A stretch of DNA of 46,717 bases, from positions 1 through 46,717 of the forward strand of contig CALQRA010000008.1 of NCBI GenBank assembly GCA_943332855.1, in the 5' to 3' direction. The notes below the pieces were generated by a model. The model ran no database searches. It had not been told where the DNA came from and saw only the letters and a list, made by a program, of their open reading frames with translations. This DNA is from Candidatus Kuenenia stuttgartensis. GTDB taxonomy: Bacteria > Planctomycetota > Planctomycetia > Pirellulales > UBA1268. Shown here piece after piece: positions 1,886-32,136 of the stretch. Within the stretch, counting starts at the first letter, position 1. Each line of letters opens with the position of its first letter. Both the position numbers and the translations under genes were made by a program.

Positions 1886-2377
1886 ATGGCTGGGTTTATG
1901 AAGATTGATAATTTGCCGGGCGATTCGCAAAATGAGACATTTAAGGACTACATCCGCATCGACAGCATGTCGTCGGAGATCACCCGGGAGATCCCTGAAT
2001 CGGCTCGCGGCAACCAGAGGGCAAAAGGACACACGATCCTGAATAACATCAGTGTCTCCAGGCAATTAGACAGGTCCTCGACGGGACTTCAGAAAAAGGT
2101 TGCCATCGGGGAAGTTATTCCTACGGTAATTATTGTTTTTGCAAATATGTACGGTAGTGGTGGCAAATACCAAGCGTACTTGACGTATACGCTCACAAAC
2201 GTCGTGCTGGCATCTTACAGCATCAGTTGCGACGCCGAAGGGGAGGATCTACCCAAGGAAGAGTTGACGCTTTCGTACACGAGAGCGGAATGGAAATACC
2301 AAGACTTCGATGAAAAGGGGAACACAGCATCGATTTATCCGGCTTCATACGACCTCACCACGGACACGGCGACGTGA
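1886..2377 (+). CDS. hcp: T6SS tube protein Hcp (TssD), paralogue 1
   Basis: This 163-residue protein should form the hexameric rings that stack into the inner T6SS tube and is ejected with the spike. It has the Hcp plan: an N-terminal FMKIDNLPGDS strand, a loop and then ISVSRQLDRSSTGL (about 55-68), a central VIPTVIIVF strand, a YQAYLTYTLTNVVLASYSIS hairpin, and a C-terminal LTLSYTRAEWKYQDFDEKG strand pair. The length is normal for Hcp. The ATG at 1886 is preceded by GAGGGGAG. It is the closest of the three paralogues to canonical Hcp, so it is the likely main tube subunit. GC content appears clearly lower than in the flanking genes. Confidence 0.85.
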   Translation: MAGFMKIDNLPGDSQNETFKDYIRIDSMSSEITREIPESARGNQRAKGHTILNNISVSRQLDRSSTGLQKKVAIGEVIPTVIIVFANMYGSGGKYQAYLTYTLTNVVLASYSISCDAEGEDLPKEELTLSYTRAEWKYQDFDEKGNTASIYPASYDLTTDTAT

Positions 2378-14622: not shown

Positions 14623-15119
14623 GTGTCCCCCTCCACGTTGATCGTTCCGCTGGCAGCATCGACGTGCGAAAGATACTGCACCGGCTCGCGGAGAGCGTCT
14701 GTCACGAAGACCGCCTCGATGGAGAATTGGAACCGCCGGGAGATCAGCAGGTCGCTGTGGTTCGCGTCGAGCGGCGAGACGCGCACATCCCGGAGGCGCG
14801 GCTCGAAGCGGTCGATGCACTCCTCGATGAGCCGGCAGAGGCGGAGGACGTTGTGATCCTCCCGGATCTCGCTGCTCTGAAGGTCGGGGAGCCCATAGTT
14901 GGCCAGCGACGAAGGCAGGTGGGGACAGCCCGGGGGCAACGCCGGCAACGGTCGCCTCGCATTGAGGAGATCGGTGAGGTCGCGACGGAGGCTTTCCCTC
15001 GTCTCCCGGATCACTTGTCCTTCGCGCGACGGCGCCTCGACCTTTGTGCGCGGATCATCATCGAGCAGCCTATCGAGCAGGCTGGAGACGACACGGTGTT
15101 CGGTGAACTGATGGGCCAT
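14619..15119 (-). CDS. tssE: T6SS baseplate protein TssE (gp25-like)
   Basis: This 166-residue protein links the baseplate to the first sheath ring. It shows SLLDRLLDDDP near the N-terminus, RESLRRDLTDLLNARRPLP, the SSLANYGLPDL motif of gp25/TssE proteins, an IRLCRLIEECI-like helix (LRLCRLIEECIDRFEPRLRDVRV), and a beta-rich C-terminus. It couples to tssF by a 4-bp overlap and lies 36 bp after tagJ. Confidence 0.93.
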   Translation of the reverse strand: MAHQFTEHRVVSSLLDRLLDDDPRTKVEAPSREGQVIRETRESLRRDLTDLLNARRPLPALPPGCPHLPSSLANYGLPDLQSSEIREDHNVLRLCRLIEECIDRFEPRLRDVRVSPLDANHSDLLISRRFQFSIEAVFVTDALREPVQYLSHVDAASGTINVEGDT

Positions 15120-15155: not shown

Positions 15156-15980
15156 TCAACCAACCTCGAACGTGACCGCAGATAACTCCATCACGCCGAT
15201 CTCTTGGTCGCCGTCGAGCACGAACAGCCGCTGCCCCACCCCCCGGACCGGCGCCGGTGGATCACCGATCCAGGTCGTGCTCCGTCCGAGCTTCGCGGCA
15301 TCGTCGCTGCCGTCGATCTCGCCCTCGATCGTGCCGTAGATCGCCGGCATGTGCACCTGTGCGTCAAACCCGTCTCGGACCACCATGTGGACAGGACGCC
15401 AGACGAGATCGAGGGGCGTGGCCGGAGGGGTGAACTCGAGGAGCTCCACCCGCTCGGCCGGGATCCAATAATACTTGCCGGTGTGGGTGAGAACCTCGAA
15501 CACCCCGGCGACGACATCGTCGAGGTCACGGAGGTCAGAAAACGGGCGGTCGCCGATGGTTCCGGGCAGCATCGCTCGGGCGTCCTCCGCGGCTTCGGCC
15601 AGTTCGCCGGCACGGGCGGTGTCGCCGGCCCGCAGTTGGACAAACGACTCCAGGCGGAGCGCCATCGTCTTGGTGGGACCCTCGGCGAGGAAGTCGGGGA
15701 GGCTTGCCGAGCGGAAGAACTCACGCCGCGCTGTCTCCGCCCGGACAAGATGACGAAGCGGGATAACGTTCACGGCGGCGCGGGCATCGAGCGACATCAG
15801 CGTGTCGAGTTGTTTGTCGGCCCGCTCGAGATCGCCGCCAACGATGAGCAGCTCAGCCAACAGCCAGCGTGCGGCCAGATCGCTCGGCGAATCCTTGACG
15901 GCGCGCGTCGCCGCATCGATCGCTGCGGCGAGTCGCCCTTCCTTGTAGAGACTGCTGGCCTGTTCGACGGGAGAAGTCAT
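15156..15980 (-). CDS. tagJ: T6SS accessory protein TagJ/ImpE
   Basis: This 274-residue protein has TPR-like helices in the first 130 residues (ASSLYKEGRLAAAIDAATRAVKDSPSD, WLLAELLIVGGDLERADKQLDTL). The ImpE family C-terminus follows, with FSDLRDLDDVVAGVFEVLTHTGKYYWIPAERVELLEF, RPVHMVV and RLFVLDGDQEIGVMELSAV. TagJ proteins bind TssB and ClpV and help tune sheath recycling in imp-type systems. It lies between the second tssC and tssE, as in the imp gene order. Confidence 0.92.
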   Translation of the reverse strand: MTSPVEQASSLYKEGRLAAAIDAATRAVKDSPSDLAARWLLAELLIVGGDLERADKQLDTLMSLDARAAVNVIPLRHLVRAETARREFFRSASLPDFLAEGPTKTMALRLESFVQLRAGDTARAGELAEAAEDARAMLPGTIGDRPFSDLRDLDDVVAGVFEVLTHTGKYYWIPAERVELLEFTPPATPLDLVWRPVHMVVRDGFDAQVHMPAIYGTIEGEIDGSDDAAKLGRSTTWIGDPPAPVRGVGQRLFVLDGDQEIGVMELSAVTFEVG

Positions 15981-16019: not shown

Positions 16020-17636
16020 TCAGGAGGGAGCGGTCGGTCGCACGACCGTGGTGAGTCGGATCAGCGAGGTGAGATCATCGAGTTGGAAGTGCGGCTGGAT
16101 GTGCATCACGATCCGGTAGGCACCGGGCGAACCGGGCGTGTCCCGGACCTCCACCTGGGCTGCACGGAGCGGGCGGCGAGCCTTCGTTTCCGGGCTGGCG
16201 CGATCGTCCGGCGTGACATACTGGAGAATCCAGTCCTCGAGAATCGACTGGAGTTGATCGGGCTGGGTGACCGACCCGATCTTGGTGCGGGCGATGACCT
16301 TGAGATAATGAGCGAAACGCGACACACAGAGCATGTACTGCAACATCGCCGAGATCGTCGCGTTGGCCGAAGCCCGTGGCGAATCGTACTTTTTGGGGCG
16401 GTGGAGCGACTGATTGGAATGAAACACGGCCTGGCCGGTCGAGCTTGTCGAGCACAACGGGATGAAGCCGGCTTCCGCGATGAAACGCTCCGCCGACTCG
16501 CCGATCACCACCTCGGCAGGGCCCCGGAAGACGAGCCCCTCGCTCGCGGCAAAATGATCGACGGGCAACCCACTGACGAGCCCTCCCCCCTCGGCGTCTC
16601 TGGAAGCTCCACGGATGTCGGCAAACCAGCCTGAACGAGCAAACTCCGCGATCACGACACTGGCAAAAGCCCAACCGGCGTTGATCCAAAGCCGGCGCTC
16701 CCCCCGGGCGCTCTCCGCGTCTTCCTGATAGCGAAACGACCGGGCCCGCCACGAGTGTTCGGCCTGCACCGACCGAGTCCCCGCGATCTCCCAGCCCTCA
16801 TAGGGCAGCCGGCCGAGGATCCTGGGGAAGGCGAGGCCGAGGAATCTCGTTTCCTCGAGCGCTTTCATCGATCTCCAGGCGGTGAATTGCGGCGTGTTGT
16901 AGAGCATCTCGAGCCCCGGGCCGGCATTGAGATCCGCGAAGGAATCAACGCCGAACAGATCGGGGGCCGGTGCCGCCACGAGAGGGGCGAAGCTCGCTGC
17001 CGCCACCTCGGCCAACCCTGTGAGAAGATCGATGTCGTCGGGATGAGCGCCGAACATATGGTCGACGACCAGCAGCCCGAATGGGGCGCCGCCAGCGGTC
17101 CCGAATTCATCCTCGTAGATCTTCCGCCACACCACCGAACGATCAAACTCCACGGCCTGGGTGTGGTCGCGCTGGAGCTCGCGCTTGGAGCAATTGAGCA
17201 ATCGCACCCGGACGGCCTTGGCGGATTTGGAGTGGGCATCGGAGCCGATCGCCTCATCGGCCCGGCCAACGAGCCACTCCAGCCCGCGCCAGGACGATTC
17301 AATCGCCTGGAACTGGGGGTGATGGAGGATGGCGTCGAGCTGCCGCCCAATCACGTCGTCGAGTCTGGCCACGTCGGCCGCCAAGCGATCGGCGAGCTCA
17401 GACCTGGTCAGCCTCTCCCCCGGGCTGACCCGGTACGCGGCCCAATGGCGGAGAAACGCCCCGTCGCTCTCATGCTCCTCCGGGAGCGCGGCGGAGGCCA
17501 CATCGAGTCGGCCCTCGACGCCGTCGGCAAGCATGGCAAAAACAGCGGGCCACACCGCAACAGCCGACGGTTCGTGCTCGACAGTCGACGCTGCGAAAGT
17601 CTCCAGTCTTCTCCCTGGGGAATCGTGGGTCGACAC
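16020..17636 (-). CDS. second TssC-like sheath protein (ImpD/TssC2 type)
   Basis: This 538-residue paralogue of TssC has a longer N-terminus (about 75 extra residues before LADRLAADVARLDDVIGRQLDAILHHPQFQAIESSWRGLEWLV). The TssC signatures are present: FDRSVVWRKIYEDEFGTAGGAPFGLLVVDH, DLLTGLAEVAAASFAPLVAA, AGWAFASVVIAEFARSGWFADIRG, ISAMLQYMLCVSRFAHYLKVIARTKIGS and PGSPGAYRIVMHI. It uses a GTG start at 17636. Dual TssC proteins are known in Agrobacterium, where one copy builds the functional sheath. This copy may be a minor or regulatory sheath subunit. Confidence 0.88.
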   Translation of the reverse strand: MSTHDSPGRRLETFAASTVEHEPSAVAVWPAVFAMLADGVEGRLDVASAALPEEHESDGAFLRHWAAYRVSPGERLTRSELADRLAADVARLDDVIGRQLDAILHHPQFQAIESSWRGLEWLVGRADEAIGSDAHSKSAKAVRVRLLNCSKRELQRDHTQAVEFDRSVVWRKIYEDEFGTAGGAPFGLLVVDHMFGAHPDDIDLLTGLAEVAAASFAPLVAAPAPDLFGVDSFADLNAGPGLEMLYNTPQFTAWRSMKALEETRFLGLAFPRILGRLPYEGWEIAGTRSVQAEHSWRARSFRYQEDAESARGERRLWINAGWAFASVVIAEFARSGWFADIRGASRDAEGGGLVSGLPVDHFAASEGLVFRGPAEVVIGESAERFIAEAGFIPLCSTSSTGQAVFHSNQSLHRPKKYDSPRASANATISAMLQYMLCVSRFAHYLKVIARTKIGSVTQPDQLQSILEDWILQYVTPDDRASPETKARRPLRAAQVEVRDTPGSPGAYRIVMHIQPHFQLDDLTSLIRLTTVVRPTAPS

Positions 17637-17693: not shown

Positions 17694-19202
17694 TTACTTA
17701 CCGGCAGCGGCAGGAATCTTCGCCACCAGACGCATCGACGACGTCAGTTCCTCCATCTGCAACCAAGGCCGCAGCCAAGCGACGGCGTTGTAGCTGCCGG
17801 GCGATCCAGGGATCTCCTCGACCTTCACCTTCCCCTCGGCCAAGGGGTAGCGCGCCTTGATCTCGGCGGATGGGTTCGGGCTGCTGACGACGTAGTTGGT
17901 CAGCCAGCCCTGCAGCCACGTCTCGCAATCAGCACGCTGCATGAAAGAGCCGATCTTGTCGCGGGCGATGCACTTGAGATAGTGCGCGATCCGCGCGGTG
18001 GCCATCACGTAGGCCAGCCTCGTCGAGATCGCGGCATTGGCGGTGGCCTCGGGGCGGTCGTATTTCTTTGCCTTTTGGGCCGTTTGGGATCCGAAGAAAA
18101 CGGCGTAGTCGGTATTCTTGAAGTGGCACAGCGGGAGAAAACCGAGCTTCGAAAGCTCCGCCTCGCGACGGTCGGTGATGGCGATCTCCGTCGGGCACTT
18201 CAGATCCTGATCACCGTCGTCGCCGGTGAACACATGCGCCGGCAACCCCTCGACCTTCCCGCCGTTCTCCACGCCACGAATCGACGTGCACCAGCCAGTC
18301 TGGGCGAAGGAGTCGGTGAGCCGCGAGCCGAAGACGTAGGCTGTATTCATCCAGCAATAATTGGAGTGATCGACTTTGATCGATTCCCCGTGCTGTCCGA
18401 GGGCCACTTCCTCGTACTGGAACTCTTCCACCGGCTTTGTCGATTGTCCGTAGGGAAGACGGGCCAGGGTGCGGGGCATGGTGAGAACGACGAACCGGGA
18501 GTCTTCCGAATCGCGGAAACTGCGCCATTTGGCGTAGCTCGTGTCGAGGAAGATCTTCTCGAGGTCGCGGGGCTTGGAAAGCTCATCGAAGCTGTCCATG
18601 CCGAGCAGTTCGGGGCCGGCGGCGGTGACAAAAGGGCAGAAGCCAGCGGCACTGACCTGCGACATCTTTGTGAGGAGGTCGATGTCTTCCGGGTGGTTGG
18701 TGAACTGGTAGTCGCCGATGAGGGCACCGTAGGGCTCGCCACCGGGGGAGCCAAACTCGGCCTCGTAAACCTTCTTGAAGAGCTGGCTCTGGTCAAACTC
18801 GACCGCCTTGTCGAGATCCTTGAAGACCTCTCGCTTCGTGGCGTTCATGACGCGGATCTTGAGGGACGCGCCGGTCTCGCTGCTCATCACGAGATGCTGG
18901 AGCCCACGCCACGACCCTTCCAAAGCCTGAAAGCTCGGGTGGTGCATGATCGCGGCGAGTTGCTGCGACATCGCCGCATCGATCTGGGCGATGGCCGCGG
19001 TGACGGTCTTGGTGACGTTCTTGTCGAACTTCATCGTCCCCTGAACGGCATGCTCCACCAAGGCGTGGATCAGCTCGTCACGGCGCGGCTTTTCCACCGC
19101 GCGGGGCATCTGGCTGGTGATCTGGTCGAGGAGGCTGCCCTTCGAAGCCTCGGCATGGCTCGCAACATCCGCAGAAGCGTGGTCTTTCTTGGCAGGTGAC
19201 AT
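17694..19202 (-). CDS. tssC: T6SS contractile sheath large subunit TssC (VipB/EvpB)
   Basis: This 502-residue sheath protein has canonical motifs: [136 protein letters not shown] and [30 protein letters not shown]. Length and motifs fit the major TssC. Its ATG lies three bases after the tssB stop, and its ribosome site AAGGAGTG is inside the end of tssB, giving tight coupling of the two sheath subunits. Confidence 0.96.
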
Positions 19203-19205
19203 AGG

Positions 19206-19730
19206 TCACTCCTTCGGTTTGTTGTTCGCTTCGCCGCCCACACCGATCTCGTCCGCCAGTTTCTTGAGCTGGTCACTGTTCTGGAGAATCTTTTCCAGTT
19301 CGCCCTCGAGCCCTTCGGCCCGATCAACGGCCGAGAGCAGATCGCGGAGCCGGTTGCGGGTATCGAGGAGCTTCTTCAGAGGCTCGACATGCTCGACAAT
19401 CTGGGCCGGCTCGAAATCCTGCATCGAGTTGAACTGCAGCTTGACCGCCATCTCCGAGCCATCGTCGGCGAGGGTGTTGGTGGTACGGAACTCGAGGCCG
19501 GGTCCCATCCTCGCGATCACATCGTTGAAATTGTCACGATCGATGTTGATGAACTTGCGGTCCTTGAGGGGCTTGAGAGCCTGGGTTGGATTGCCGGTGA
19601 AATCACCGAGCACGCCGACCACGAACGGCAGGTCTTTGACGACCGTTGCCCCTTCGGTTTCAACCTCATACGTGATGTGGACACGCGGCTTACGAACGCG
19701 ATTGAGTTTGCCGTGGATTGATTCAGCCAT
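19206..19730 (-). CDS. tssB: T6SS contractile sheath small subunit TssB (VipA)
   Basis: This 174-residue partner of TssC begins [28 protein letters not shown], followed by [17 protein letters not shown], the [22 protein letters not shown] signature and a helical C-terminus ([15 protein letters not shown]) that ClpV or TagJ may bind. The ATG at 19730 is preferred over upstream ones because AGGGGGC lies at ribosome-site distance and family members begin here. A 229-bp gap precedes it. Confidence 0.95.
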
Positions 19731-19879
19731 GAATTGCCCCCTGTTTCCGACGCCGGAGTTCCGGTGGTACCGATTCCTGAGAGTTTGGATTTCCTGCTGG
19801 GCTGCCCGGATGGAACAGACCGCTGGATGACAGTGAACCCCCCCCGCCCCGTCGATGAAGACGATTCGCATAGGAATGC

Positions 19880-19959: not shown

Positions 19960-21123
19960 TCAGGTCGGCTCCTCGAACGAGAGCCCCACGAATTTCCCGA
20001 CCGAGGTCAGGACAGCAGGATCGCCGATCAGTTCCCTGTAGTACTGGTCGCGTGGCAAGGCAGCCATGCGAACAATGTTGCGGATCTGAACGGCAACAAG
20101 GCTGTGGGGATCACTCTTTTCGAAGAACTCCGCCACCCGGGCAAGAGCTTGAAGAGCATCTTCTCTGGTGATAACGGCGGATGCAAGGGGGGGGCTTCCC
20201 GTTGGGGCAACTTGATGGAGATGGTCGTCTTCCGGGAGTAGCGCATCGGTCGCCGGAGGGGGCGGGGTGGACTCGCTCTCAATCGCCGCGATTCTCGCCG
20301 GGGCGGCCGATTTGAGGACGTCCCGGCACTCGGCGAAGAGGCTGGTGAAGGGACCGGTCGGGAGGACGGCCATCCCGGCGGAGGCCGTGGCGACGGCTTC
20401 CGAGAGGGCGATCCAAGCGGTCGCGGCCCGGTTGAGATCGCCGTAGACGTCGGCCAGGAAACCCTTTTGAGATTCCAGGACCGCTGTTTTGAACTGTTCC
20501 GGCGTGACGACCCTCCCCCGATCAGCCTCCGGGGACCTGCTGTCAGCGGCTCCTTGGAGGGACGCGCTGATGCGGTGGTGACCGAGGCCGAGCGGATCAC
20601 AGCTATGGCCATCGGTCAGTGGCGCGTTGAGAATCGCCGCGATCAGGAGTCCGTCGGTGTCGATGCCGATGAGCCGGGTCAGCGGGAGGATCCGCTCGTT
20701 CGCCACGGTCTCGTCGTCTGCCGGCCCGTCCTCGGGATCAGGCGCGGGAAAGAGCGAATCCCACTGCGATTGGATCATCGTCCGGGCGATGTCGAAGCCG
20801 GCTGCCAATCCCGCAAAGCCGTCGGTGCGGAGCAGGGCCTCGGTGAGGACGGCGGCCACTGCCAGGTCGTGGGTCTTGTCGCGCAGCAATCCGAGCGACA
20901 GGTCGCGGGCCTTGGCCCAGGTCGGGACTGCGCTCCGCCAGGAAGAGTCATCGCCGCCGTCGTCGGCCCGGCGCTCGGTGCGTCGCGCCTCGTCGCGGAA
21001 ATCGCGGATGGTTGACCAAGTCGCAGCGGCGGTGGGATCGTCGCGGAGATTGACCCCTGAGGGGGCCCCGAGCGAGATCGGCCGCGCGTAATCTTCGAGG
21101 TTGATCGGGATGCTGACAGGCAT
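19960..21123 (-). CDS. tssA: T6SS assembly protein TssA (ImpA)
   Basis: This 387-residue protein belongs to the ImpA family that primes and coordinates tube and sheath growth. The N-terminal domain shows the ImpA pattern: ISLGAPSGVNLRDDPT, ARDLSLGLLRDKTHDLAVAAVLTEALLRTDGFAGLAAGF and QWDSLFPAPDPEDG. The C-terminus has TREDALQALARVAEFFEKSDPHSLV and AVQIRNIVRMA, close to the VasJ-type DALxxLxxVxxYFxxxEPxSPxPxLxxRA motif. The ATG at 21123 has GGAGGG upstream. Confidence 0.93.
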   Translation of the reverse strand: MPVSIPINLEDYARPISLGAPSGVNLRDDPTAAATWSTIRDFRDEARRTERRADDGGDDSSWRSAVPTWAKARDLSLGLLRDKTHDLAVAAVLTEALLRTDGFAGLAAGFDIARTMIQSQWDSLFPAPDPEDGPADDETVANERILPLTRLIGIDTDGLLIAAILNAPLTDGHSCDPLGLGHHRISASLQGAADSRSPEADRGRVVTPEQFKTAVLESQKGFLADVYGDLNRAATAWIALSEAVATASAGMAVLPTGPFTSLFAECRDVLKSAAPARIAAIESESTPPPPATDALLPEDDHLHQVAPTGSPPLASAVITREDALQALARVAEFFEKSDPHSLVAVQIRNIVRMAALPRDQYYRELIGDPAVLTSVGKFVGLSFEEPT

Positions 21124-21423
21124 GATGCCCTCCACGGAAAAGCAGCCGCCGTGCCGCCGGATGGTTGAGCGATCACACGATCGAGTCGTCCGGATCGGCA
21201 CGCCCACGGCGGACGTTATCCAGTCGTCGGGAAAGGATCTCCCCCTAGGAGGCTAGTTCACGGGGGCGGAGAGTCAATCAATCGGAAGCGGCAGGGCCTG
21301 CGAGGAACCGGCCCGCGATCGGGAGAATCGGCACGACCCCGCCGAGCCCAAACCCTTGGGCGGGCGGCACGCCCCGTTTCCCGAAAAGCCGTTTTCAGGC
21401 TCAAAAACCGGAAAACATTGAAG
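21124..21423. other. 300-bp spacer between the shortened tssM and tssA
   Basis: No coding region is supported. One small hairpin, GCCCAA (21346-21351) with TTGGGC (21356-21361) and a four-base loop, lies about 65-80 bp downstream of the tssM-like stop on the minus strand, without a following U-tract. A CCTAGG palindrome occurs near 21246. The gap may separate a membrane-complex transcript from the tssA-ClpV transcript. Confidence 0.4.
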
Positions 21424-22929
21424 CTAGCCCCCCCACAGCATCCGCCGGGAGATGAACGTGGCGAAGGCGATGGCCGCAGCGGCGCTGATCCCCCACAGCA
21501 GTCTGGCAATCCGCAACGCCTGGATGTCGCTTGACTCGACACCGGGGGCCCATTCGAGGTCGCCCTGTGAATCGAGGAGTTTCTCCAAGGCACCCCCGAT
21601 GAAGGCCTGTTGATCGCGCCCCTCACCACAGGACGCCAGATAGCACCCGGAAATGAACGGCGGGAGGGCGGTCGTGTCACCTTCGGCCACGACGAAAGCC
21701 CGCTGCAGAATCCACGCCAGCCGCGCCGAGAGGTCGCAGCGGACGCGCGACAGCAGGGCCACAAGCGCCGCGTTGTTCGGTTGAACAAGCACATCGGGGG
21801 CGCGCAGCAATCGTCCCTGGATGAGGTCCTCGACAGCACCGCAGGCCCTGAACGCCAGGGCGCCGAGCTGTTCGGACGTGGCTATCAGGCCTGTGGGAAA
21901 GCGTTGGCCGATTCTCGACTGCCGCTCGGCGGGAGGAGTGCGGAGGATCAATTCGGCCACGCCTTGATCTGGTGTCGTGCACAGCAGCAGTGCGACCACG
22001 GGAGCCCGGACACCCATGCCGCGACCGAGTGAAGCGAGGTCCTCGCCGAGCGCCCGGCCGACCGCCATGGTCTCGGCCTCGCCCCGCTCGATCATGTTCC
22101 AGGGCAGGATGGCGAGCGTGCCGTTGATCGGCGCCAGCCCACCGCGCTCGCGGCGCAGCAGTTCGCAGACATAACGCAGGCGCATCCTCATCTCCTCGTG
22201 GAGACGCAACGCCCCGGGGCTAGCGGGGGCGGAGTCTTCGCCCTGGTGGCGCGGAGCCGACGCGGCGCCTCCGCCCGTCTCCGCCGCCGACGTCGCGTCC
22301 CCAATCACGGTGCCGCGGTGATCGGTTACCAGCGTGCGGGGCTCCTCCCGCGAGACGGTCTGGGTGTCTTCCGACCCTCGCCTCGACAGGTCGGAGAGCT
22401 GGCTGCTCCGCGAGAGGCTGACATAGACCGCATCGGCGCCTCCCCACACATGGAGCCCAGCGGCTCCGGCCGGCGACGCGAGGACGGTGAGTACGCTGGG
22501 AGAATCGGCAAAAATCCGTTTCTCCTCCTCGTCGGACGAACCTCCGAGCACGATGAACAGGGGCACATCCTTGATCGCGATCCTCTGGTGATTCAATTCG
22601 AGCAGCGCGGCGTTCCAGGCGGCGAGGATGTCGGGCCAGCGGCTTGTCTCGCGCTCCAGCCAGAGCCGGGCCGCCTGATACACGAACACCGGTCCGAGGA
22701 TCAGCAGTGCTCCCAGCAGGGCCAGCTTGTAGGGGTGCCACCACGCCTGGATCACATGACGCTCGTTGCCGATCACGAGCACGCCAATCGCCAGCGCGAC
22801 GGTGAGCAGTTGGAAGAGTGCGACGAGGGCCGCGATTTTTCCCGCCGTCGAGAGCCCCACCACGGTCCGTGGCAGGTTGATCAGTGGCAGGAACGGTGTG
22901 AGGAGCCAGCGCAGCCATGCCATCGTCAT
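21424..22929 (-). CDS. shortened TssM/IcmF-like T6SS inner-membrane protein (cytosolic half only)
   Basis: This 501-residue protein has two N-terminal membrane segments (about 32-54 and 69-86), a cytosolic region, and one C-terminal membrane segment (about 475-493) followed by only eight residues. IcmF-type landmarks are present: PLFIVLGG (123-130) in the P-loop position, PINGTLAILPWNMI (267-280) where TssM has its NGV-LTL strand, RAPVVALLLCTTPDQGVAEL (308-327), and FISGCYLAS (425-433) for the FxRGxYFTS motif. The P-loop reads GGSSDEEEKR, so the GKT is lost. The periplasmic half that binds TssJ is absent; full TssM has about 1100 residues. The ATG at 22929 is preferred over a TTG further upstream. 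Confidence 0.85.
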   Translation of the reverse strand: MTMAWLRWLLTPFLPLINLPRTVVGLSTAGKIAALVALFQLLTVALAIGVLVIGNERHVIQAWWHPYKLALLGALLILGPVFVYQAARLWLERETSRWPDILAAWNAALLELNHQRIAIKDVPLFIVLGGSSDEEEKRIFADSPSVLTVLASPAGAAGLHVWGGADAVYVSLSRSSQLSDLSRRGSEDTQTVSREEPRTLVTDHRGTVIGDATSAAETGGGAASAPRHQGEDSAPASPGALRLHEEMRMRLRYVCELLRRERGGLAPINGTLAILPWNMIERGEAETMAVGRALGEDLASLGRGMGVRAPVVALLLCTTPDQGVAELILRTPPAERQSRIGQRFPTGLIATSEQLGALAFRACGAVEDLIQGRLLRAPDVLVQPNNAALVALLSRVRCDLSARLAWILQRAFVVAEGDTTALPPFISGCYLASCGEGRDQQAFIGGALEKLLDSQGDLEWAPGVESSDIQALRIARLLWGISAAAAIAFATFISRRMLWGG

Positions 22930-22987
22930 GTTCCCCGCCCGGAGGAGTCGATTCCAACGCAACCGATCTGATTTCCGATCCCCGCCA

Positions 22988-23602
22988 TCACCGCATCACG
23001 ATCCGCCACGCGGCAACGAAGACGCATGCGGTCACCATGGTCGCTACGAGGCTCGCCCACAGGAGTCGAGATCCTCCTGAGAGAGGGGGTGCGCCGGACA
23101 GCTCCGGCGCCGTGTCGGGCAGCGGTGGCCGCCCATCACCCACGCGCACGAGCTGTTCCTGGGTTCGCAGCCATTGCCGCAGGGATGGCAGTTGGTCCCT
23201 GAAGATACCGCGGAATCCCAGCACGACAGCCAGGATGAAGACTTCGAGCGCGTCGCGGCTGGCCAGGCCGACCGCCTGCTCTGCCCGGCCGTAGAACTCC
23301 GTGGCCCGGTCGCGGGTGCGGCACATCTCGACCTCGAGGGCGTTGTTCTCCCACCAAGCCTGCCCCTTCCAGGGGATGTCGACGATCAAAAGTTCGTCGA
23401 TCAGCGAGATCAGGGCGTAGGAGGCCAACTCCCAATCGCGCATCCTCGTCCCGGGAACGAGGGCCGCGCCCTGCTCGAGCACACCACGGATGTGGGCGTG
23501 TTCCTCCACGGGGCGGCCAGCCCGCCCAGACCGAGCACGCTCCACCAGTGCCAGGATTTCCAGCATCACCGGATCGATGGCTGCGGCGAACTCAGGGGAC
23601 AT
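22988..23602 (-). CDS. tssL: T6SS inner-membrane protein TssL (DotU/IcmH)
   Basis: This 204-residue DotU-type protein has a helical cytosolic domain with ASYALISLIDELLI (about 60-73), the PWKGQAWWENNALEVEMCRTRDRATEFYGRAEQA segment (about 77-110, compare W...LL...FF.....GEEFF in the family) and EVFILAVVLGFRGIFRD (about 119-135). A single C-terminal membrane helix follows at about 182-201. It is the usual partner of TssM and TssK at the inner membrane. No peptidoglycan-binding OmpA domain is attached. It lies between tssK and tssM. Confidence 0.93.
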   Translation of the reverse strand: MSPEFAAAIDPVMLEILALVERARSGRAGRPVEEHAHIRGVLEQGAALVPGTRMRDWELASYALISLIDELLIVDIPWKGQAWWENNALEVEMCRTRDRATEFYGRAEQAVGLASRDALEVFILAVVLGFRGIFRDQLPSLRQWLRTQEQLVRVGDGRPPLPDTAPELSGAPPLSGGSRLLWASLVATMVTACVFVAAWRIVMR

Positions 23603-23668: not shown

Positions 23669-25141
23669 TCACGCAGTGCGAGGGACGGCAAACAGGGCAA
23701 ATTCCAGGGAGATCGGCTGGCCTTCGCGCGAGACTTGGATGCGGCGATTTCCCGGGAGTGAGGCGCTGTTGAGGAGCAGCGTCTCCCGCAGCCGGATGGA
23801 GAGCGATTGCGAGTCACGGACATCATTCCAGGCGACATTTTCACGCCCGATCTGGTAATAGAGCCACCCTCCCTTGTCGGGCAGGGCCCGCGGCGGTCGA
23901 TCGACCGGGAGCAGCTGCAGTCCGGGGACTCCCATCCGGAAGAGATGGTCGACCTGCCTGGCGCTCCCCAATTTCCAGTCGAGTTGGGTGTTTCCATTGA
24001 GAAGCCGGCGGCACTCCTCCTCCGGCATCTCTCCCCGGAGGACACCGACGTACCAGCGCCAGTCTGCCTGGAGCCACTTCGCCTCGAGTGCCACCCCCAG
24101 CGAGGCGGGTCCGGTTCCGAGGAAGTAGCGCTGCTCGAACTCGTGCGCGACGACGCGGGAGAGGAGCCGCTCGATCCGGTCCTTGACGTGGTGGAAGATC
24201 CTCGCCAGATCTTCATGATCGTAGATGGGAAGATCCGCCAGCCGCCGATTCGGCTCGAAAACCGAGAGTTGCCCGACGACTCGGCACAACTCCTGATAGG
24301 CCTGACGGGGGTGGATCCCGCTGGCGAAGGCCACGGTGCGCAGTGCCGCCTGCGACTCGAGCAACTTGGAGAGCATGATCAGCCTGTCGAGATCTCCCGG
24401 CTCCGATGAGGAGAATCCGATGTCGCGACTGACAGCCTGCTCCGCCAGCACCTCGGTCTTGCGTCCGAGCATGTCGTAGACCGCGCGCACGACATCGCGA
24501 CCGAGGCCATCCCAGGCGTCGATCGTGAGCATCGGCGGAAAAAAATCGGGGTCGATCTCCGGTGCCGTCTCGCGGCTGCCGGTGCGCCGCAACTGCGCGA
24601 TCGGCAGCAGCTCATACCCGGCGAGATCCTCGTTGGAGACCAGCAGCTTGACGTTCAGACGACGGAAATCGACCTCCTGATCGTTGCCCCCGCCGGTCTC
24701 GTCTTGCGTCGTATGGCTCACGGAGCTGAATCGGCTCCGGTCGGCGGGGCCGGGAGGGGTGACGTTGGCCCCGGCTGGATCGAGTCTGGGCACCGCCAGA
24801 TAGACGCGCACCGTATCGTCCGAGGCGAGGGCCTCGCTCAGCGCTGCGCCGAGCGCCGGTTCCTGCTGGCCGGCCTGCTCGATGCCGATCCGCCCCGGTT
24901 CCTCCCCTGGCTCGAGCCACACGAGCGTTCCGTCACGGAGAACCGCCCGGCAGGCCCGCAGCTCAAACTGGCGGTTGGCAAGCGCGATCGGATCGATCTC
25001 CAGTTTGACAATGCCGTATCCGCAGGGATCGCGTCCGGCCAGCTGCAGCGACAAGTACTCGCCCCAGTGTCGATCGGAAGCCTGGAAATGATGGGGACGG
25101 AGAAACATCCCCTCCGACCAATGAACCGGCAGATGTCGCAT
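23669..25141 (-). CDS. tssK: T6SS baseplate-membrane connector TssK
   Basis: This 490-residue protein shows the family start VHWSEGMFLRPHHFQASDRHWGEYL, then YGIVKLEIDPIALANRQFEL, LPIAQL and the HPRQAYQELCRVVGQLSVFEPNRRLADLPIYDHEDLARIFHHVKDRIERLL segment, with a beta-rich C-terminal domain that recalls phage receptor-binding proteins. It trimerises and joins the baseplate to TssL/TssM. It is slightly longer than the usual 440-450 residues. No strong ribosome site is seen before the ATG. Confidence 0.94.
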   Translation of the reverse strand: MRHLPVHWSEGMFLRPHHFQASDRHWGEYLSLQLAGRDPCGYGIVKLEIDPIALANRQFELRACRAVLRDGTLVWLEPGEEPGRIGIEQAGQQEPALGAALSEALASDDTVRVYLAVPRLDPAGANVTPPGPADRSRFSSVSHTTQDETGGGNDQEVDFRRLNVKLLVSNEDLAGYELLPIAQLRRTGSRETAPEIDPDFFPPMLTIDAWDGLGRDVVRAVYDMLGRKTEVLAEQAVSRDIGFSSSEPGDLDRLIMLSKLLESQAALRTVAFASGIHPRQAYQELCRVVGQLSVFEPNRRLADLPIYDHEDLARIFHHVKDRIERLLSRVVAHEFEQRYFLGTGPASLGVALEAKWLQADWRWYVGVLRGEMPEEECRRLLNGNTQLDWKLGSARQVDHLFRMGVPGLQLLPVDRPPRALPDKGGWLYYQIGRENVAWNDVRDSQSLSIRLRETLLLNSASLPGNRRIQVSREGQPISLEFALFAVPRTA

Positions 25142-25428: not shown

Positions 25429-28400
25429 CTACTCCTCCGGAACGGCGATCCGCAGGGGCTCCGGGGCCACGGCCCGCTGGCGGAGTTGCCCCACTTCGAG
25501 CAGCGTGAGTTTCGTGCCGGGGGGGACGACTCCTTGCTGCAGCGGGAACTCAAACTCGTGGGTCACCGTGCCGGTAGTGGGATCGACGGGATCATGAACG
25601 GCACGAAGGCACTCTGGCTCCAGCCTGACGCGGAGCACGGGGAGCCCGTCCGAGGTGTCGGGGGGGTGCCGTTCGGTCACCCGCAGCAGAGCCCGACCTT
25701 CGCCCGAGTTCTCGAGCAGGCACTCGATCGAGACACCGGGGAGCAGGGGGATGGGGAAAGCGCGGCGGGCATCGAGGGGAAGATCGGCGACATCGATGGA
25801 GATCGTCGGCTCGACCGGAACCGTGGTGAACCACAGGCGGATCTCCGCCTCCGCGGCGTCCTGCGGCCAGTCGGGCACGAGCAGATCGATGACGGGAACC
25901 GGCCGATGGGGTTGATACTCCGCGTCTACAAACACCCTGGGCTGTGCACCGGCCCGACCAAGCGGGATCACTTCCGCCCACAGCTCGAAGGGATGTGGTG
26001 AAAAAAGCTTGTCATCGCCGTTTTGAATGGAGACGGGGAACCGCACCGCATTCCCTTCACGGCGGGGCAAATGCACCGCGACAAACCAACGAGCTTGGGG
26101 GTTGGTCGGATCGGGCAAGTCATCGTGGCTGTCCCTGATCCGCTGTTCGGTGCCGCCGTCATACCGGCTGTGTTCCAGCCCACGTCCCTCCGGTGCGACA
26201 AACAATTCCAGACCTTCGCCGCCGGAGACCGTGATCGTTGACGACACCGGGGCAGCGGTGCTGTCGAGGATGACGTCGTACGTCCGACGCGACGGAGGAG
26301 CCTCGGCCGGGAGTTCTACGGCCTGCCCCAGTTCGGCGACGCGGGGTATCCCATCGGCGCCCTGCACCTTCCAACGGGTGAGCTTCAAAGCCTCGCGGAG
26401 TGCTGCCATGAGGCGGTCGCCGTCCGCGGCGTGGATCAGGCTTCCCCGGCTCTTCTCGGCGACCATGGCAAGCTCGTCGAGGCTCGCCTTCTCCTGATTG
26501 CCGAGACGGAAGTCAAAGGCGACGACATCGATGGGGACGGGGGACGCCCGGCCACGATCAATCTTAGCGAGGGCATCGAGGACATCGCTGGTGGTCGTCG
26601 GTGGCTGCACGTCGGTCTGCGCATTGACGCCGTCGGTGATCACCACGATCCGCGACGGGGTCGCAGGATCACTGGCAGACACATCGCTCTTCAAGGCACT
26701 GGCGATCGCCAGATAGAGGGGAGTCTCGCCGGCTGGAGCGAGACGGTCGATGAGTTGTTCGGCGGCATGGGCCCGGCCCGGGCCGAGTTGCTGCATCGGC
26801 AACACTTGCTGCACGTCATTCCCGGGCTTGGCATCGAACACGATTCCTTCCCGGGCGGCCGTGTCGCGTTCGCGTTCACCGACCTCGGACAAAGCGGCCG
26901 CGTAGCTCCCGTCGGCCTGCTTGGTCCACCGCGTCCGGTGCCCGTAGACCCACAGCGAAGCATCCCAATCGCCGCTCACGGCCATCTGCCGGAGCACCTC
27001 AACGAGCGCTCGTTTTGCCACATCGAACCGTCGTCCTCCCCCGGGGACCTGTTCCCCCATGCTGCCAGAGCAGTCGAAGATGAACGACACCGATTCGCGA
27101 CGTAGACGGTGCCCTTTGAGCGTGACGCGCGGAGCCACCGGGGGCCGGGCAGTCCAGACGATTGGTGGACGGCTGTCCGGGGGCCTCACCGGCACGTTCA
27201 CGGCGATGCGGTGACCGCGGAAGATCGCGTTGAAGGCGACGCTCCCCTCCTGGCTCGCAGCGAGGGCCGATGCCGAACGGCGGTCGATCTGGATCGTTCG
27301 CCTGTCCACCGAGGTGCGCTCGTCATCAGCATGCACCGGCACGCCGATTCGCTGGGCAGCGTCGCCGTCGGTCGGCGGACGAAGCCCCACCGGTCCCCCG
27401 CCGGATGGGTCGTCGAGCCACACCGCAGCGTCACCATCGGGGACCCCGGCTTCGGGATGGAGCGTGAAGAACACCTCCGCGGCATCGCCGTTCATCGGCA
27501 TGACGGTCAAGGGTGAGGCGTTGATCTCACCCCAATTCCGGGCCAGCGTTTCCAGACGCGCGAGTCTGGTGCTGGTGGTGGCCGATGCACCGTTGTCGTC
27601 GGCGGCGACGGAGGCTTGCTTAACGCAGATGCCCGCCGCGGCGGCAAACCACGGGGGCGCCTCCGGGGTGCTGTCGGCGAAGAAGTCGTCCATCAGATCT
27701 TCGGCGGTCCTCAGGAGGCGGTCATGCCAAGCCCGCCGCTGCTGCGCTGCAGCCGCCGACACACGATCTGCCGGCAGCGACGCCCGCGCCGTCAACGAGG
27801 CGGCAATCGGTGCCAGCCTCCGGTATGCCGCCGCATCGGCATCTTCGGGCTGGGCGGCAGACCGTTCGAAATCCGAGACGGCAAGCCTGACTGTTTGCCC
27901 CCACGTTCCCACGGTCGTGGCCAATCCTGCTGCCGTCGTCGTGCTCGTGGCCGTCGCCCGCAGCGACAATGCCGGCAAGAGCGGATCGACGCGGGTCCCC
28001 TGCCAGGCGACCCAGCCGGCACCAATGGCGGAGATGTCGGGGGTTGCCGGCTTCGGGCGCTCCCTCTCGCCGTGCGTCTGTTGTGAGGACAGGCTCTGCG
28101 ACAGCGTCGATTGACGCTCCAGCAGTTGGATCCTGCGGATCCCATCGACAAGCGGGATCCGCAGGGCGGCGCGGATGGCGGCCAGCGTCGGCGGGGAGTC
28201 GGGGGCGCTGGTCGCGAGCGTCGCGCAGGTCGTGTCGTAGGCTTCGCGCAGCGTCATGTGGGCGGCACGCACCTCCTCAGCACCGAGTTTGAATGTCTCG
28301 GTGGCCGCGGCGGCCGAATCACCCCCGGAGGGGGCACGCGACAGCAGGTCCTCGAGCGCCGCGGTCGCCGTGGCCAATCGTTCCCAATCGATGTCGACCG

Positions 28401-30450
28401 ACACCTTGGCGGGATGGGCCTGCGGATCGCTGGCGCCCGAGGAGGTGTCGGCGCGCCTCGCCGCCGCTGACCAGATCGCCAGCCAGGGGAGCTCTGCACG
28501 CACTTGATCGAGGGTTGTCCACGCGTCAGACACGACCTTCCCGGTCAGAGCGGTGTGGGCATAGGCCGCCTCCGCCCGCCCTGCCTGGTGGGCAGCCAGG
28601 GACAGCGACGTATCGTCGCCGATGAGCGCCAGATCGAACGCCATCCGCCGCGCTGCGTCCCCTTCGGCACGGGGGGCGAGAGCCGCAAGAGGGGCATCAG
28701 CGCGCGCGTCGTCGGGGAATGCTGCTTCCGCGGCCGACTGGGAGAGCATTGCGATCCTTGTGAGCAGCGTTGATTGCCGTTGGGCACCGGAAGGAACGCA
28801 GTGCCGCAGCAGGGTCGCTGCGTGCATTTCGAACGGGACGATCGTGCCCGGCGGCGGCGGTCCCACGATCTCCAGCCAGCGATCCCACGCGGCCCGATCG
28901 ATCAGGGCGCCCGCTCTCACCACCATCACCATCCGCTGCCAAGCCTCATCGGCCCGCCCGCGCCATTCGATGGGATCGCTGCAGGGTGCCGCCGCTGGGC
29001 TCCCGGCGACCGCTTTCCCGGCCGGATCGGAAGCCCAGGCATCCAGCTGCCCGAGCCAACCCGCGTTGATCTCCCTGGTCTCCCCGGAGGCGAGGCGGGC
29101 GAGTCTGAAGCCGGGCAGATGGGCCAATTCGCTGGTCATTCTGGAGAGTTGCCTCTCGGTCGTCTCGACAGCAATTTTCTGGTCGTTCAGGTCATCGTGA
29201 TCGACGTTTCCTGCGAAGCAGAGGCGCTCCGCTCGCAGCAGCGCATGCTCGTGTTCCGCCCACACCAGGGGATGCTCCCGGACGCCCCGCTCGCGGAGTG
29301 TCGCGCACGCCATCCAGCGGGCACGTAACCAGTCGATCTGGCCGTTGGCCTGCCGCGGGCCGGTGGGTGGAGTCTGGCTTTGCGGCGCCCGTCGCACCGC
29401 CCAGGCGACACCGACGTCGTTCCGGGCATCGGGAACAGGCAGGATGAAGGGAGTCTGGTGCAACCCGTGTTGGAGGAGGGAGCGCCGATTGACCTCGTCG
29501 GCGAGATACGTCGCCAGTTCAGGCAGCGAGACCTGGCCGTTCCCGTTTCCCCACGGCTTGGTGTCCGCGGCACCTTCAATCGCGTTGGCGAACGAGGTGG
29601 CGAAGGCCGATGTGCCATCCGCTGCCCCGACATCGGCGATTTCACCCGGTCCTGCCGACGTCAGCACCCACATCCGATCCGTCGGCGAGGCCTGCATGTC
29701 CGCGGTCAAGGCCACCGGAAAAGTACCGTCGGTGATACCGATCGCCTCGGCCTGGGCCGGCCGGGCGACATCGAGCACGAGGAGGATATTTGCGTTGGGG
29801 GGCCGCTTCGATGCCAGCGCGGCGAGAAGCGAATCGACGCGGAGCCAAGCCGCGTCGACGGAGCCGACATCCCGGGGCGATGCCCGCGGTGGCACAAGAC
29901 AGGCGTGACCATCCCGATCGACCGCCCCGATCGCCACGAGATAGACGATCAAGGTCTGTCCGCCGGGGCCACCGGGCCGGACTTCCGACACCCTCTTGGC
30001 GACCTCCTCAAGCCACTGCTTGGCATCGGACTCGCGAAGCGCTTCCGAGATGTCGATCACCTTGGTGGTGCCCGGATCGTAGGTTGATCGCGGCCGCATC
30101 AACTCCCGGAACAATTCCCGGTCTTCGGTCGCCATCGGCACCGGCCCGAGTGGCGATCGGTAGGAGGAGACGACGCCGAGGATCAACGGAACCTGACGCT
30201 TGAGCACCAGCAACTGCCACAGAAAAAGGCCCAACAGGCAGATCGCGGCGAGGCTGTAGCCGGTCGGTGTGGCAAAGGCCCACCACCAGGCATGCTGATG
30301 GTGCACCGTGCCGGTAGCGGCAGGACGCCAGCGGCCGGATCGCCCTGGGGCGATGGCTTCCCCTGCGGGAGCCGGCTTTGCGTTCCTCGCGCCGCGGCTC
30401 CGCCAGGTTTGATTTCTCCGCTGCTGTTCAGGATCGAGCGGTTGTTCCAT
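25429..30450 (-). CDS. giant membrane protein with degenerate caspase-like domain and vWA domain, T6SS-linked
   Basis: The product has 1673 residues. After a basic, Pro/Ala-rich N-terminus there is one membrane segment (65-84). Residues about 90-340 look like a peptidase C14 (caspase) fold: VYLVAIGAVDRDGHACLVP (169-187), NILLVLDVARPAQ (221-233) and FATSFANAIEG...SLPELATYLADEV (283-320). The catalytic His position is Ile174 and the Cys position is Ala229, so it should be inactive. A helical middle region follows. A vWA domain (about 1118-1340) has an intact MIDAS: Asp1126-x-Ser-x-Ser1130, a Thr in GETPLYLA, and Asp in VVITDGVNAQTD. The C-terminus is beta-rich. An alternative start lies at 30567. 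It may serve as scaffold or envelope anchor for the T6SS. Confidence 0.8.
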   Translation of the reverse strand: MEQPLDPEQQRRNQTWRSRGARNAKPAPAGEAIAPGRSGRWRPAATGTVHHQHAWWWAFATPTGYSLAAICLLGLFLWQLLVLKRQVPLILGVVSSYRSPLGPVPMATEDRELFRELMRPRSTYDPGTTKVIDISEALRESDAKQWLEEVAKRVSEVRPGGPGGQTLIVYLVAIGAVDRDGHACLVPPRASPRDVGSVDAAWLRVDSLLAALASKRPPNANILLVLDVARPAQAEAIGITDGTFPVALTADMQASPTDRMWVLTSAGPGEIADVGAADGTSAFATSFANAIEGAADTKPWGNGNGQVSLPELATYLADEVNRRSLLQHGLHQTPFILPVPDARNDVGVAWAVRRAPQSQTPPTGPRQANGQIDWLRARWMACATLRERGVREHPLVWAEHEHALLRAERLCFAGNVDHDDLNDQKIAVETTERQLSRMTSELAHLPGFRLARLASGETREINAGWLGQLDAWASDPAGKAVAGSPAAAPCSDPIEWRGRADEAWQRMVMVVRAGALIDRAAWDRWLEIVGPPPPGTIVPFEMHAATLLRHCVPSGAQRQSTLLTRIAMLSQSAAEAAFPDDARADAPLAALAPRAEGDAARRMAFDLALIGDDTSLSLAAHQAGRAEAAYAHTALTGKVVSDAWTTLDQVRAELPWLAIWSAAARRADTSSGASDPQAHPAKVSVDIDWERLATATAALEDLLSRAPSGGDSAAAATETFKLGAEEVRAAHMTLREAYDTTCATLATSAPDSPPTLAAIRAALRIPLVDGIRRIQLLERQSTLSQSLSSQQTHGERERPKPATPDISAIGAGWVAWQGTRVDPLLPALSLRATATSTTTAAGLATTVGTWGQTVRLAVSDFERSAAQPEDADAAAYRRLAPIAASLTARASLPADRVSAAAAQQRRAWHDRLLRTAEDLMDDFFADSTPEAPPWFAAAAGICVKQASVAADDNGASATTSTRLARLETLARNWGEINASPLTVMPMNGDAAEVFFTLHPEAGVPDGDAAVWLDDPSGGGPVGLRPPTDGDAAQRIGVPVHADDERTSVDRRTIQIDRRSASALAASQEGSVAFNAIFRGHRIAVNVPVRPPDSRPPIVWTARPPVAPRVTLKGHRLRRESVSFIFDCSGSMGEQVPGGGRRFDVAKRALVEVLRQMAVSGDWDASLWVYGHRTRWTKQADGSYAAALSEVGERERDTAAREGIVFDAKPGNDVQQVLPMQQLGPGRAHAAEQLIDRLAPAGETPLYLAIASALKSDVSASDPATPSRIVVITDGVNAQTDVQPPTTTSDVLDALAKIDRGRASPVPIDVVAFDFRLGNQEKASLDELAMVAEKSRGSLIHAADGDRLMAALREALKLTRWKVQGADGIPRVAELGQAVELPAEAPPSRRTYDVILDSTAAPVSSTITVSGGEGLELFVAPEGRGLEHSRYDGGTEQRIRDSHDDLPDPTNPQARWFVAVHLPRREGNAVRFPVSIQNGDDKLFSPHPFELWAEVIPLGRAGAQPRVFVDAEYQPHRPVPVIDLLVPDWPQDAAEAEIRLWFTTVPVEPTISIDVADLPLDARRAFPIPLLPGVSIECLLENSGEGRALLRVTERHPPDTSDGLPVLRVRLEPECLRAVHDPVDPTTGTVTHEFEFPLQQGVVPPGTKLTLLEVGQLRQRAVAPEPLRIAVPEE

Positions 30451-30606
30451 CGGTATGGGAAGGCACCATGGGGCGACGGCAGTGGACGTCGTGGGGGGAT
30501 GACCGCGGTTTCCCTCGAGGAGAATACACCGCAGCCAGATCGGGTACCACCGATTTCCCCTGAGCATCAGCCCCGATGGGAAGCGGCTGGGGAGGGGTCG
30601 AGGGGG

Positions 30607-31788
30607 TCAACGGAGGTGTCCCCGCACCGTCGCTGACGGATCGCGGAAGGGATTCCGAATGGACGTCGCTGACGGATCGCGGAAGGGATTCCGAATGGAC
30701 GTCGCTGACGAACTTCGGAGTGGGGAGATGACCGATGTCGTCGGCGTTCTCTCCAGAACCGACTCCTCCCTCGATGTCTCGCTCGTGGGCAACGGCTCCT
30801 TGGGCGGGAGCGATTCCTTGCGGGGAGATCGCAACGCATCCGGTGCGGTTTCCTTCCCGGTTTCCGGCGCGGTTTCTTTCGCGTCGACGGGGCCTGCCGG
30901 GATCTCTTCCATCACCGGGCCCGCAGGCACTTCCTCGGGGCCTGCAGGGCGGGGGTTGGGATTGCATGCCCGCATCGCCTCCAGCGCCATGGCCCGCACG
31001 CGTGCGCTCGGCTCCTTGTAGCAGCCGCGGTCATCGCGCTCGTAGACGATCGAGGAAAGTTTGTTGAGGGTGTCGCTGTTGCAGCATCCATGCTCTCCAC
31101 ACCCGCACGCATTCCGGTCGCAATCGGGAGGGAGGCAGTCATCGCCATAACCGCGGCGCTTCGACTTGGCCGTCTCTCCGCTCGGGGGAGCCTTTCCGTG
31201 GAGGCTTTTCTTGAACAGCGCAAACCGGTTCAGGTGCGCGGCCTTCGCATCCTCGAACGCCTCGTGGCAGGTTTTCAGAGAACGGACCCGGCGTTTTGCA
31301 CAGCGGTCGGCCTGACAACTGGCCGTCTTGAGGATCGCCTTGACGGCCTCGTAACGAACCGCTTCCGTGCAGTCATCGAGGGCTGCGAGGAGTGCCTCGG
31401 CAGCACCCTCGGCGCAGGGACCGCAGCCGACAGTCCCCAGATACTTGATGGCCTTGATCTTCTGCGCCGCCTTGTCGTTCTCCATCTTGATCTCGGCCGC
31501 CGCCTTGATCGCCGGGTTCTGCGACTTCAGGTTTTGGGGGTCCGTGATCGGGAGAAGTCGTGGCGTGGCCTCCGCGCCGGGATAATTACCGCTGCTGTTG
31601 AAGGAGTTGCCGAGCCGGCTCGAGGCGCTGTAGGCAGGATTTTGCGGGACGCCGAGCCAACTCCACAGTGTCGGCGGTGGGGCCACGGGGGCCATCGGCG
31701 CCGGGATCTGGGCGACGACGGCATCCACCTGCCATGCCAGGCAGAGGCTCATCAGGAGCGGAGTGATGCGTGGGATTGGGCGTCGCAT
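30607..31788 (-). CDS. secreted Cys-rich HEAT-repeat protein upstream of the T6SS operon
   Basis: The product has 393 residues from the ATG at 31788. Residues 1-27 form a signal peptide ending VVAQ. HEAT-like helices occur at about 104-155 (KIKAIKYLGTVGCGPCAEGAAEALLAALDDCTEAVRYEAVKAIL) and 260-275 (SARVRAMALEAMRACN). Between them is a cysteine cluster (DDCLPPDC...CGCGEHGCC, about 217-236) that could bind metal or form disulfides. The C-terminal 110 residues are Pro/Glu-rich, then Arg/Ser-rich with a duplicated ATSIRNPFRDPS unit. Secreted HEAT proteins like this are common in planctomycetes. It is co-directional with the vWA gene 156 bp downstream and may share its transcript. Confidence 0.75.
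   Translation of the reverse strand: MRRPIPRITPLLMSLCLAWQVDAVVAQIPAPMAPVAPPPTLWSWLGVPQNPAYSASSRLGNSFNSSGNYPGAEATPRLLPITDPQNLKSQNPAIKAAAEIKMENDKAAQKIKAIKYLGTVGCGPCAEGAAEALLAALDDCTEAVRYEAVKAILKTASCQADRCAKRRVRSLKTCHEAFEDAKAAHLNRFALFKKSLHGKAPPSGETAKSKRRGYGDDCLPPDCDRNACGCGEHGCCNSDTLNKLSSIVYERDDRGCYKEPSARVRAMALEAMRACNPNPRPAGPEEVPAGPVMEEIPAGPVDAKETAPETGKETAPDALRSPRKESLPPKEPLPTSETSREESVLERTPTTSVISPLRSSSATSIRNPFRDPSATSIRNPFRDPSATVRGHLR
30632..30703. repeat. exact 36-bp tandem duplication in the 3' end of the HEAT-protein gene
   Basis: Two identical 36-bp units (30632-30667 and 30668-30703) encode the repeated 12-residue unit SATSIRNPFRDP. The start of a third, diverged unit follows at 30704. Perfect identity suggests recent slippage or selection for copy number. 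Confidence 0.92.
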
Positions 31789-32136
31789 CGGAGCGGGGAG
31801 GTGCCGGAAGTGGGGAAGATTGGCTGAGGGCTCGCGACCATGTCGCTTCAAGTCGATCGCATCGTTGATTTCGGCGTTTTACGACCGAATCAACGCGCAA
31901 AATCGTCACGACCGGTACAGTGGGTACGCCCTTAAGAGGGGGGGGCGGTGCGAGCCTGACGATCAGGTGGGATGGGAAGGGTGCGGAGGGTAGCGGGCCG
32001 TGGATAAAGTGCCTGCCGCAGGATGAGGCAGCCGCCACTCCAGGCGGGGCATCAGCCAGGCAGTGATTCCCTCCCGGGGAACCCGGTTTGGAAGGAGTCT
32101 TTCTGCGCTGCAGACCGTTCCCGCGCGAGGTATTCC
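31789..32136. promoter_or_regulatory. 348-bp divergent spacer with a bulged inverted repeat
   Basis: This is the only divergent junction at the right end of the T6SS region, so it should hold the promoter for the HEAT/vWA genes (minus) and for the leucine-rich-repeat gene (plus). TTGATTTCGG (31865-31874) and CCGAATCAA (31884-31892) form nine pairs with one bulge around a loop that includes TTTT. GGTAC and GGGTAC occur just beyond. No gene is supported in it. Confidence 0.4.

Follow-up and report, generated by a model that had tools for sequence, protein, structure and literature searches.

To our knowledge, experimentally studied T6SS envelope complexes are known in two forms, TssJLM and TssNQOPR. 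In the Bacteroidota T6SS-iii, TssJ, TssL and TssM are absent, TssN docks TssK, and TssO, TssP, TssQ and TssR are all essential (PMC10781749). TssO, TssP and TssQ each carry one N-terminal transmembrane helix followed by periplasmic domains, with PKD domains in TssP, and TssR is a lipoprotein of ∼790 residues that contains a vWA domain (D2) and for which no caspase fold has been reported (PMC10781749). Two papers on Planctomycetes (PMC6461901, PMC5394234) report the presence of T6SS genes alone, and the open-access literature, searched for a Planctomycetes T6SS together with TssJ/TssM or with caspase plus vWA, yielded no description.

The locus analyzed here lies in a window of 46,717 nucleotides (the whole stretch of DNA under study, contig CALQRA010000008.1) and encodes CASVWA, a giant pseudo-caspase/vWA membrane protein (25429..30450, minus strand). 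Together with its relatives, the locus resembles the TssNQOPR type in that TssJ and the TssM periplasmic domain are absent, and in that its periplasmic side is predicted to consist of proteins with a single N-terminal transmembrane helix and periplasmic bodies, here CASVWA and a second giant, its paralog. Domain types are also shared, with vWA in TssR (D2) and CASVWA, and PKD or Ig-like domains in TssP and the paralog, respectively; like the T6SS-iii parts, the giants are lineage-specific and confined, near-perfectly, to T6SS genomes. Unlike T6SS-iii, however, the window and its relatives keep TssL and a short form of TssM. Unlike TssR, CASVWA is a membrane-anchored protein of 1673 residues with a pseudo-caspase domain, and a Pfam search gave no TssR-family match in CASVWA or its homologs; the likeness to TssR is therefore one of analogy, not homology.

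The T6SS locus and its missing canonical periplasmic half

The window contains a T6SS locus whose genes lie mainly on the minus strand. These encode the baseplate protein TssK (23669..25141, PF05936, E 9e-77), a TssL/DotU protein without a peptidoglycan-binding domain (22988..23602, PF09850, E 4e-21), a short TssM of 512 residues in which IcmF_N is present (21424..22962, PF14331, E 8e-9, and hydropathy), TssE (gp25, 14619..15119, PF04965, E 6e-16) and TssG (11609..13159, PF06996, E 1e-90), as well as TssA (19960..21207), TssB (19206..19871), TssC (17694..19202), a second TssC-like sheath protein (16020..17636), ImpE/TagJ (15156..15980), TssF (12739..14820) and ClpV (TssH, 8817..11492), all assigned by domain matches. 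Hcp (1886..2377) and VgrG (3835..5946), likewise recognized by domain match, are encoded on the plus strand, with two further Hcp-like ORFs (2544-3209 and 3238-3807) before VgrG. The minus strand also carries, upstream of TssK, the CASVWA gene and a gene for a HEAT-repeat protein with an N-terminal signal peptide (30607..31851; translation probably begins within this ORF, at about 31788). The two TssC-type genes are adjacent, and the second copy lies beside the first in relatives too. The Hcp-like ORF at 2544-3209 matches Hcp over its C-terminal half only and has a weak Host_attach/baeRF12 match.

The inner half of this locus is canonical: as in the TssJLM complex of T6SS-i, TssL and the N-terminal cytoplasmic domain of TssM are encoded beside TssK, TssF and TssG. 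Unlike in TssJLM, however, TssM is cut after its third membrane helix, TssJ is absent and giants are present. The window TssM ends ∼9 residues past the third helix and has no periplasmic domain. Across the class of Planctomycetes that includes this genome, TssM spans 450-680 residues and ends 0-14 residues after this helix in all 19 sequences measured; T6SS genomes from the other classes of this phylum encode a TssM of 1129-1516 residues. The TssM periplasmic domain (PF06761) was found in 0 of 41 T6SS-positive class genomes (G000 included) and in 15 of 24 from other classes; the corresponding figures for TssJ (PF12790) are 0 of 41 and 19 of 24. Both profiles can miss diverged versions: five genomes from other classes match neither, and TssM is long in the four of them that were examined. 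For the class itself, however, the sequences show directly that TssM is cut short. Taken with the 0/41 counts for both families, this truncation indicates that the periplasmic half is absent where giants are found.

The giants do not represent a split-off TssM periplasmic domain. An hhalign comparison of a long-TssM profile (A6) with both giants gave no similarity to that domain, and this origin was rejected. Any takeover of its place would thus be a replacement rather than a split gene, and any correspondence an analogy only.

A separate observation concerns four genomes from other classes (G391, G198, G350 and G414) in which TssM has 1444-1516 residues and neither PF06761 nor TssJ is matched. 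Their T6SS loci contain ORFs of ∼2300-3400 residues of unknown type (L179:1687-10770 in G391, the L182/L183 neighborhoods in G198 and G350, and L185 in G414), and are possibly yet another envelope variant.

Domain architecture and topology of CASVWA

CASVWA is a genuine, conserved gene product. Its minus-strand ORF spans 25429-30567, and the ATG at 30450, which gives the 1673-residue protein, matches the starts of homologs through a tryptophan (W16) conserved at their N-termini; the plus-strand frame over 25429-30450 contains many stops. Full length (∼1600-1800 residues) is kept in dozens of genomes, spread through the order and the class. The homologs found are planctomycete records, by which the window genome is assigned to Planctomycetes, and among the matches listed only two confirmed ones lie outside Planctomycetes, covering 57-71 residues of the vWA domain alone. 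Rhodopirellula europaea 6C (L120) and strain TBK1r (L119), as culturable relatives, are among the carriers of a CASVWA homolog. A dN/dS of 0.22 against two close relatives corresponds to purifying selection. This, together with the full-length conservation, rules out a chance ORF. The original prediction, made from the DNA alone, had placed a protein of this size at these coordinates without stating the strand, and its coordinates and residue numbers (Ile174, Ala229, Asp1126, Ser1128 and Ser1130) are exact.

Structurally, the protein begins with a single N-terminal membrane helix (residues ∼52-82, 30205..30297, minus strand), located at residues ∼59-77 by hydropathy and 52-82 in the AF2 model. 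Basic residues around it point to an orientation: in 49 homologs, the 30 residues before the helix contain on average 6.2 K/R and those after it 2.1, with the N flank exceeding the C flank in 47, and the paralog averages 7.9 before and 1.0 after. The window copy itself has equal flanks (3 and 3); the asymmetry is a property of the family. On this excess, and by the positive-inside rule only, both giants are predicted to be N-in/C-out with periplasmic bodies.

Residues ∼86-350 form the pseudo-caspase domain (29401..30195, minus strand), supported by profile, AF2 model, Foldseek and alignment. The window copy matches the NCBIfam EACC1-associated caspase family (NF047832) at E 2.9e-5 and 26.8 bits, against a curated cut-off of 140, and 30 of 47 homologs match it, with a best E of 1.4e-15. 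The AF2 model of the region (pLDDT 88.3) retrieves metacaspase 9 and caspase-11, -9 and -7 in Foldseek (E 1e-8 to 1e-7, TM-score by target 0.5-0.65 against caspases and metacaspases), so the caspase-like fold that had been proposed, and that an unrelated structure would have refuted, stands. The catalytic His and Cys positions are occupied by Ile174 and Ala229. Column 174 is His in 30 of 51 aligned rows and column 229 is Cys in 14, and the two coincide in one row only, which rules out CASVWA as an active protease. The exception, L100:9935-14860 from a Schlesneria MAG, has ‘HS’ in place of ‘HG’ and may still possess a caspase site or resemble one. Thus, CASVWA shares its fold with EACC1-associated caspases and peptidase C14 by sequence profile and by structure but, unlike them, has lost the His/Cys pair, carries a membrane helix as well as a C-terminal half with a vWA domain, and is predicted to be periplasmic.

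The vWA domain (residues ∼1117-1360, 26371..27102, minus strand) rests on Pfam, AF2, Foldseek and alignment. The Pfam match is sub-threshold in the window copy, and VWA_2 is matched by 42 of 43 homologs. Its MIDAS, D1126-x-S1128-x-S1130 with T1243 and D1273, is intact: none of the 51 rows departs from D1126, S1128, S1130 or D1273, and the T1243 column contains T in 37 and S in 14. The decay of the protease site beside this strictly kept metal site suggests, at the level of sequence, which activity selection maintains. A beta-rich C-terminal region follows (residues ∼1361-1673, 25432..26370, minus strand), seen in the AF2 model and as a conserved block in alignment A2. The vWA domain and this tail were modeled together at pLDDT 91.3 and retrieve vWA, integrin and ITIH structures (E 1e-10), as well as the pilus adhesins SpaC and PilB, in Foldseek. 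Searched against PDB sequences, the CASVWA profile returned weak vWA-type matches only. Residues ∼369-399 are helical in the AF2 model; they lie just before the middle region (residues ∼400-1050), which the original prediction took to be a long helical stretch. The membrane segment, the intact vWA domain and the beta-rich tail had all been anticipated in the original prediction, and each is borne out here.

Linkage to T6SS and companion proteins

Giants occur almost exclusively in genomes with a T6SS. They were counted with a C-terminal profile (A3) in frames of at least 1350 residues only, since A3 also matches unrelated vWA proteins in short frames. Among 249 class genomes, 69 contain both a giant and tssK, one a giant only, 35 tssK only and 144 neither (Fisher p 9e-34); among 117 genomes of relatives, the counts are 34, 8, 3 and 72 (p 2e-18). 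Neither p-value is corrected for phylogeny, and the presence and absence of the two genes vary together even inside one genus. Where giant and tssK share a contig (n = 46), they lie <60 kb apart in 41 genomes and <25 kb in 31. Gene dosage follows the same pattern: the four genomes in which two giants were counted (G497, G583, G590 and G640) each have two tssK loci. Homologs located mostly away from T6SS loci would have spoken against the proposed link; instead, 69 of 70 giant-bearing class genomes carry tssK, and the homologs lie mostly close to T6SS loci.

The association is not absolute. In several families of the order, giants are found on another contig or far from tssKLM (G076, G347 and G569, for example), and are thus not always in the T6SS operon. 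No giant was recognized in 35 of 104 tssK-positive class genomes, at least one of which (G510) has a diverged copy missed by the profile; in the others, the giant is possibly diverged or dispensable. ORFs of ∼3000 residues near T6SS genes in G501 and G512, one of them (G501) with beta-helix repeats, gave no CASVWA profile match and were rejected as CASVWA.

The usual companions of CASVWA are the second giant and the HEAT-repeat protein. The second giant shares the membrane helix and the pseudo-caspase domain with CASVWA (hhalign probability 99.9), and its tail consists of Ig-like/CarboxypepD_reg domains; a PDB sequence search with its profile gave two weak matches only, at the C-terminal end. 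The HEAT family has a signal sequence, with a plausible N-terminal lipobox in 8 of 23 members (a ninth regex match is internal). One member, L191:6643-8076 in G590, combines a lipobox with a PPIC-type peptidyl-prolyl isomerase domain (E 8e-8).

The order paralog-HEAT-CASVWA recurs across loci. In one G590 locus, it extends to paralog-HEAT-CASVWA-TssK-TssL-TssM-TssA-TssB-TssC, an order that the window reproduces minus the paralog, and in G395 and the second G590 locus the two giants flank TssM. The paralog was not found in the window genome (91%-complete). In the sister species G006, however, it is encoded on a different contig, and its absence from the window genome could reflect either an assembly gap or true loss.

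Possible roles of CASVWA

CASVWA is probably an inner-membrane part of a distinct T6SS membrane complex of this class of Planctomycetes, in which the periplasmic half has been replaced non-homologously, although no experiment supports this. Its membership in a rebuilt complex is inferred because the usual parts are absent and because of topology, linkage and dosage. A fuller version, only slightly more likely than not, is a hybrid complex with a canonical inner half and a periplasmic half built from the pseudo-caspase pair and the HEAT protein, in which the dead caspase fold serves as an oligomerization module. In such a complex, the retained TssL and N-terminal part of TssM would dock the baseplate via TssK. 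With TssJ, a lipoprotein, and the periplasmic domain of TssM both gone, their place would most likely be taken by CASVWA and its paralog, both single-span and large-bodied, and by the exported, sometimes lipidated HEAT protein. The caspase fold may then mediate oligomerization or packing close to the inner membrane, which is a guess, as oligomerization is only inferred. The middle region of CASVWA would span the periplasm, and the MIDAS may make a metal-dependent contact with the paralog, the HEAT protein, or the peptidoglycan or outer membrane, closing or gating a trans-envelope channel; the ligand, too, is inferred and no more than a guess. Replacement of the missing periplasmic anchor, raised as an option in the original prediction, is therefore the best reading but remains unproven, since no experiment shows function. 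Its support lies in the lack, across the class, of TssJ and of the periplasmic part of TssM, the positive-inside topology and the precedent of a vWA domain in TssR (PMC10781749).

The strict conservation of the MIDAS could also suit a T6SS regulator, whose periplasmic vWA domain would respond to a ligand, to contact or to damage of the envelope and signal via the cytoplasmic tail to TssK, TssL or TssM. The predicted tail does carry a conserved [ST]WR-type motif, some T6SS-positive genomes apparently lack a giant, and an extracellular vWA domain has been proposed as a sensor in the T6SS threonine kinase PpkA (PMC3224232), a membrane protein that is linked to the T6SS, as CASVWA is, and has a vWA domain outside the cytoplasm, as CASVWA is predicted to have. 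Unlike PpkA, however, CASVWA has no Ser/Thr kinase domain and a different architecture, and Pfam/NCBIfam domain searches detected in it neither a kinase or phosphatase domain nor an output domain of another kind. Moreover, 1600 residues is big for a sensor, and regulation accounts neither for the disappearance of TssJ and of the periplasmic part of TssM throughout the class nor for the paired paralog. A regulatory role is thus unlikely, although contact sensing is not excluded.

EACC1-type caspases occur in prokaryotic conflict systems, and as the EACC1-associated caspase is the best sequence family for CASVWA, the protein might instead be a cytoplasmic conflict or cell-death module merely co-located with the T6SS. 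This is very improbable and largely refuted by co-occurrence: the restriction to T6SS genomes is near-perfect and matched in copy number, the catalytic dyad is missing in 50 of 51 homologs, the NF047832 score is far below its cut-off, and the predicted location is periplasmic. Weakest of all is an adhesin, or an effector displayed or fired at a target and binding through its vWA, since the commonness of vWA and Ig-like domains in surface adhesins, the SpaC and PilB matches and the position of the gene beside vgrG and hcp in some loci (G101) are outweighed by the inner-membrane anchor, the lack of a PAAR/VgrG/Hcp fusion, the presence of conserved partners where an effector would have variable cargo and immunity genes, and full-length conservation across orders.

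If CASVWA does belong to a rebuilt membrane complex, it would represent a third envelope solution, shared by an entire class of Planctomycetes, and imply that separate evolution of the two halves, cytoplasmic and periplasmic, is possible. It would also indicate how T6SS-carrying Planctomycetes seemingly without anchor genes may still fire, and would mean that a caspase fold has been given a structural role in secretion. As the candidate genes are conserved and few in number, the question lends itself to direct testing, and the same genes would provide a marker set for T6SS annotation in the phylum.

Further genes of the window adjoin the T6SS locus. A DUF6931 protein directly after VgrG (5951-6595) and a 343-residue ORF after ClpV (7722-8753), the latter without a Pfam match, may each be T6SS accessory genes. 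The region 35009-45855 encodes TPM-domain, DUF7133/HEAT/cytochrome-c and N,N-dimethylformamidase-like proteins, and is apparently unrelated to the system.
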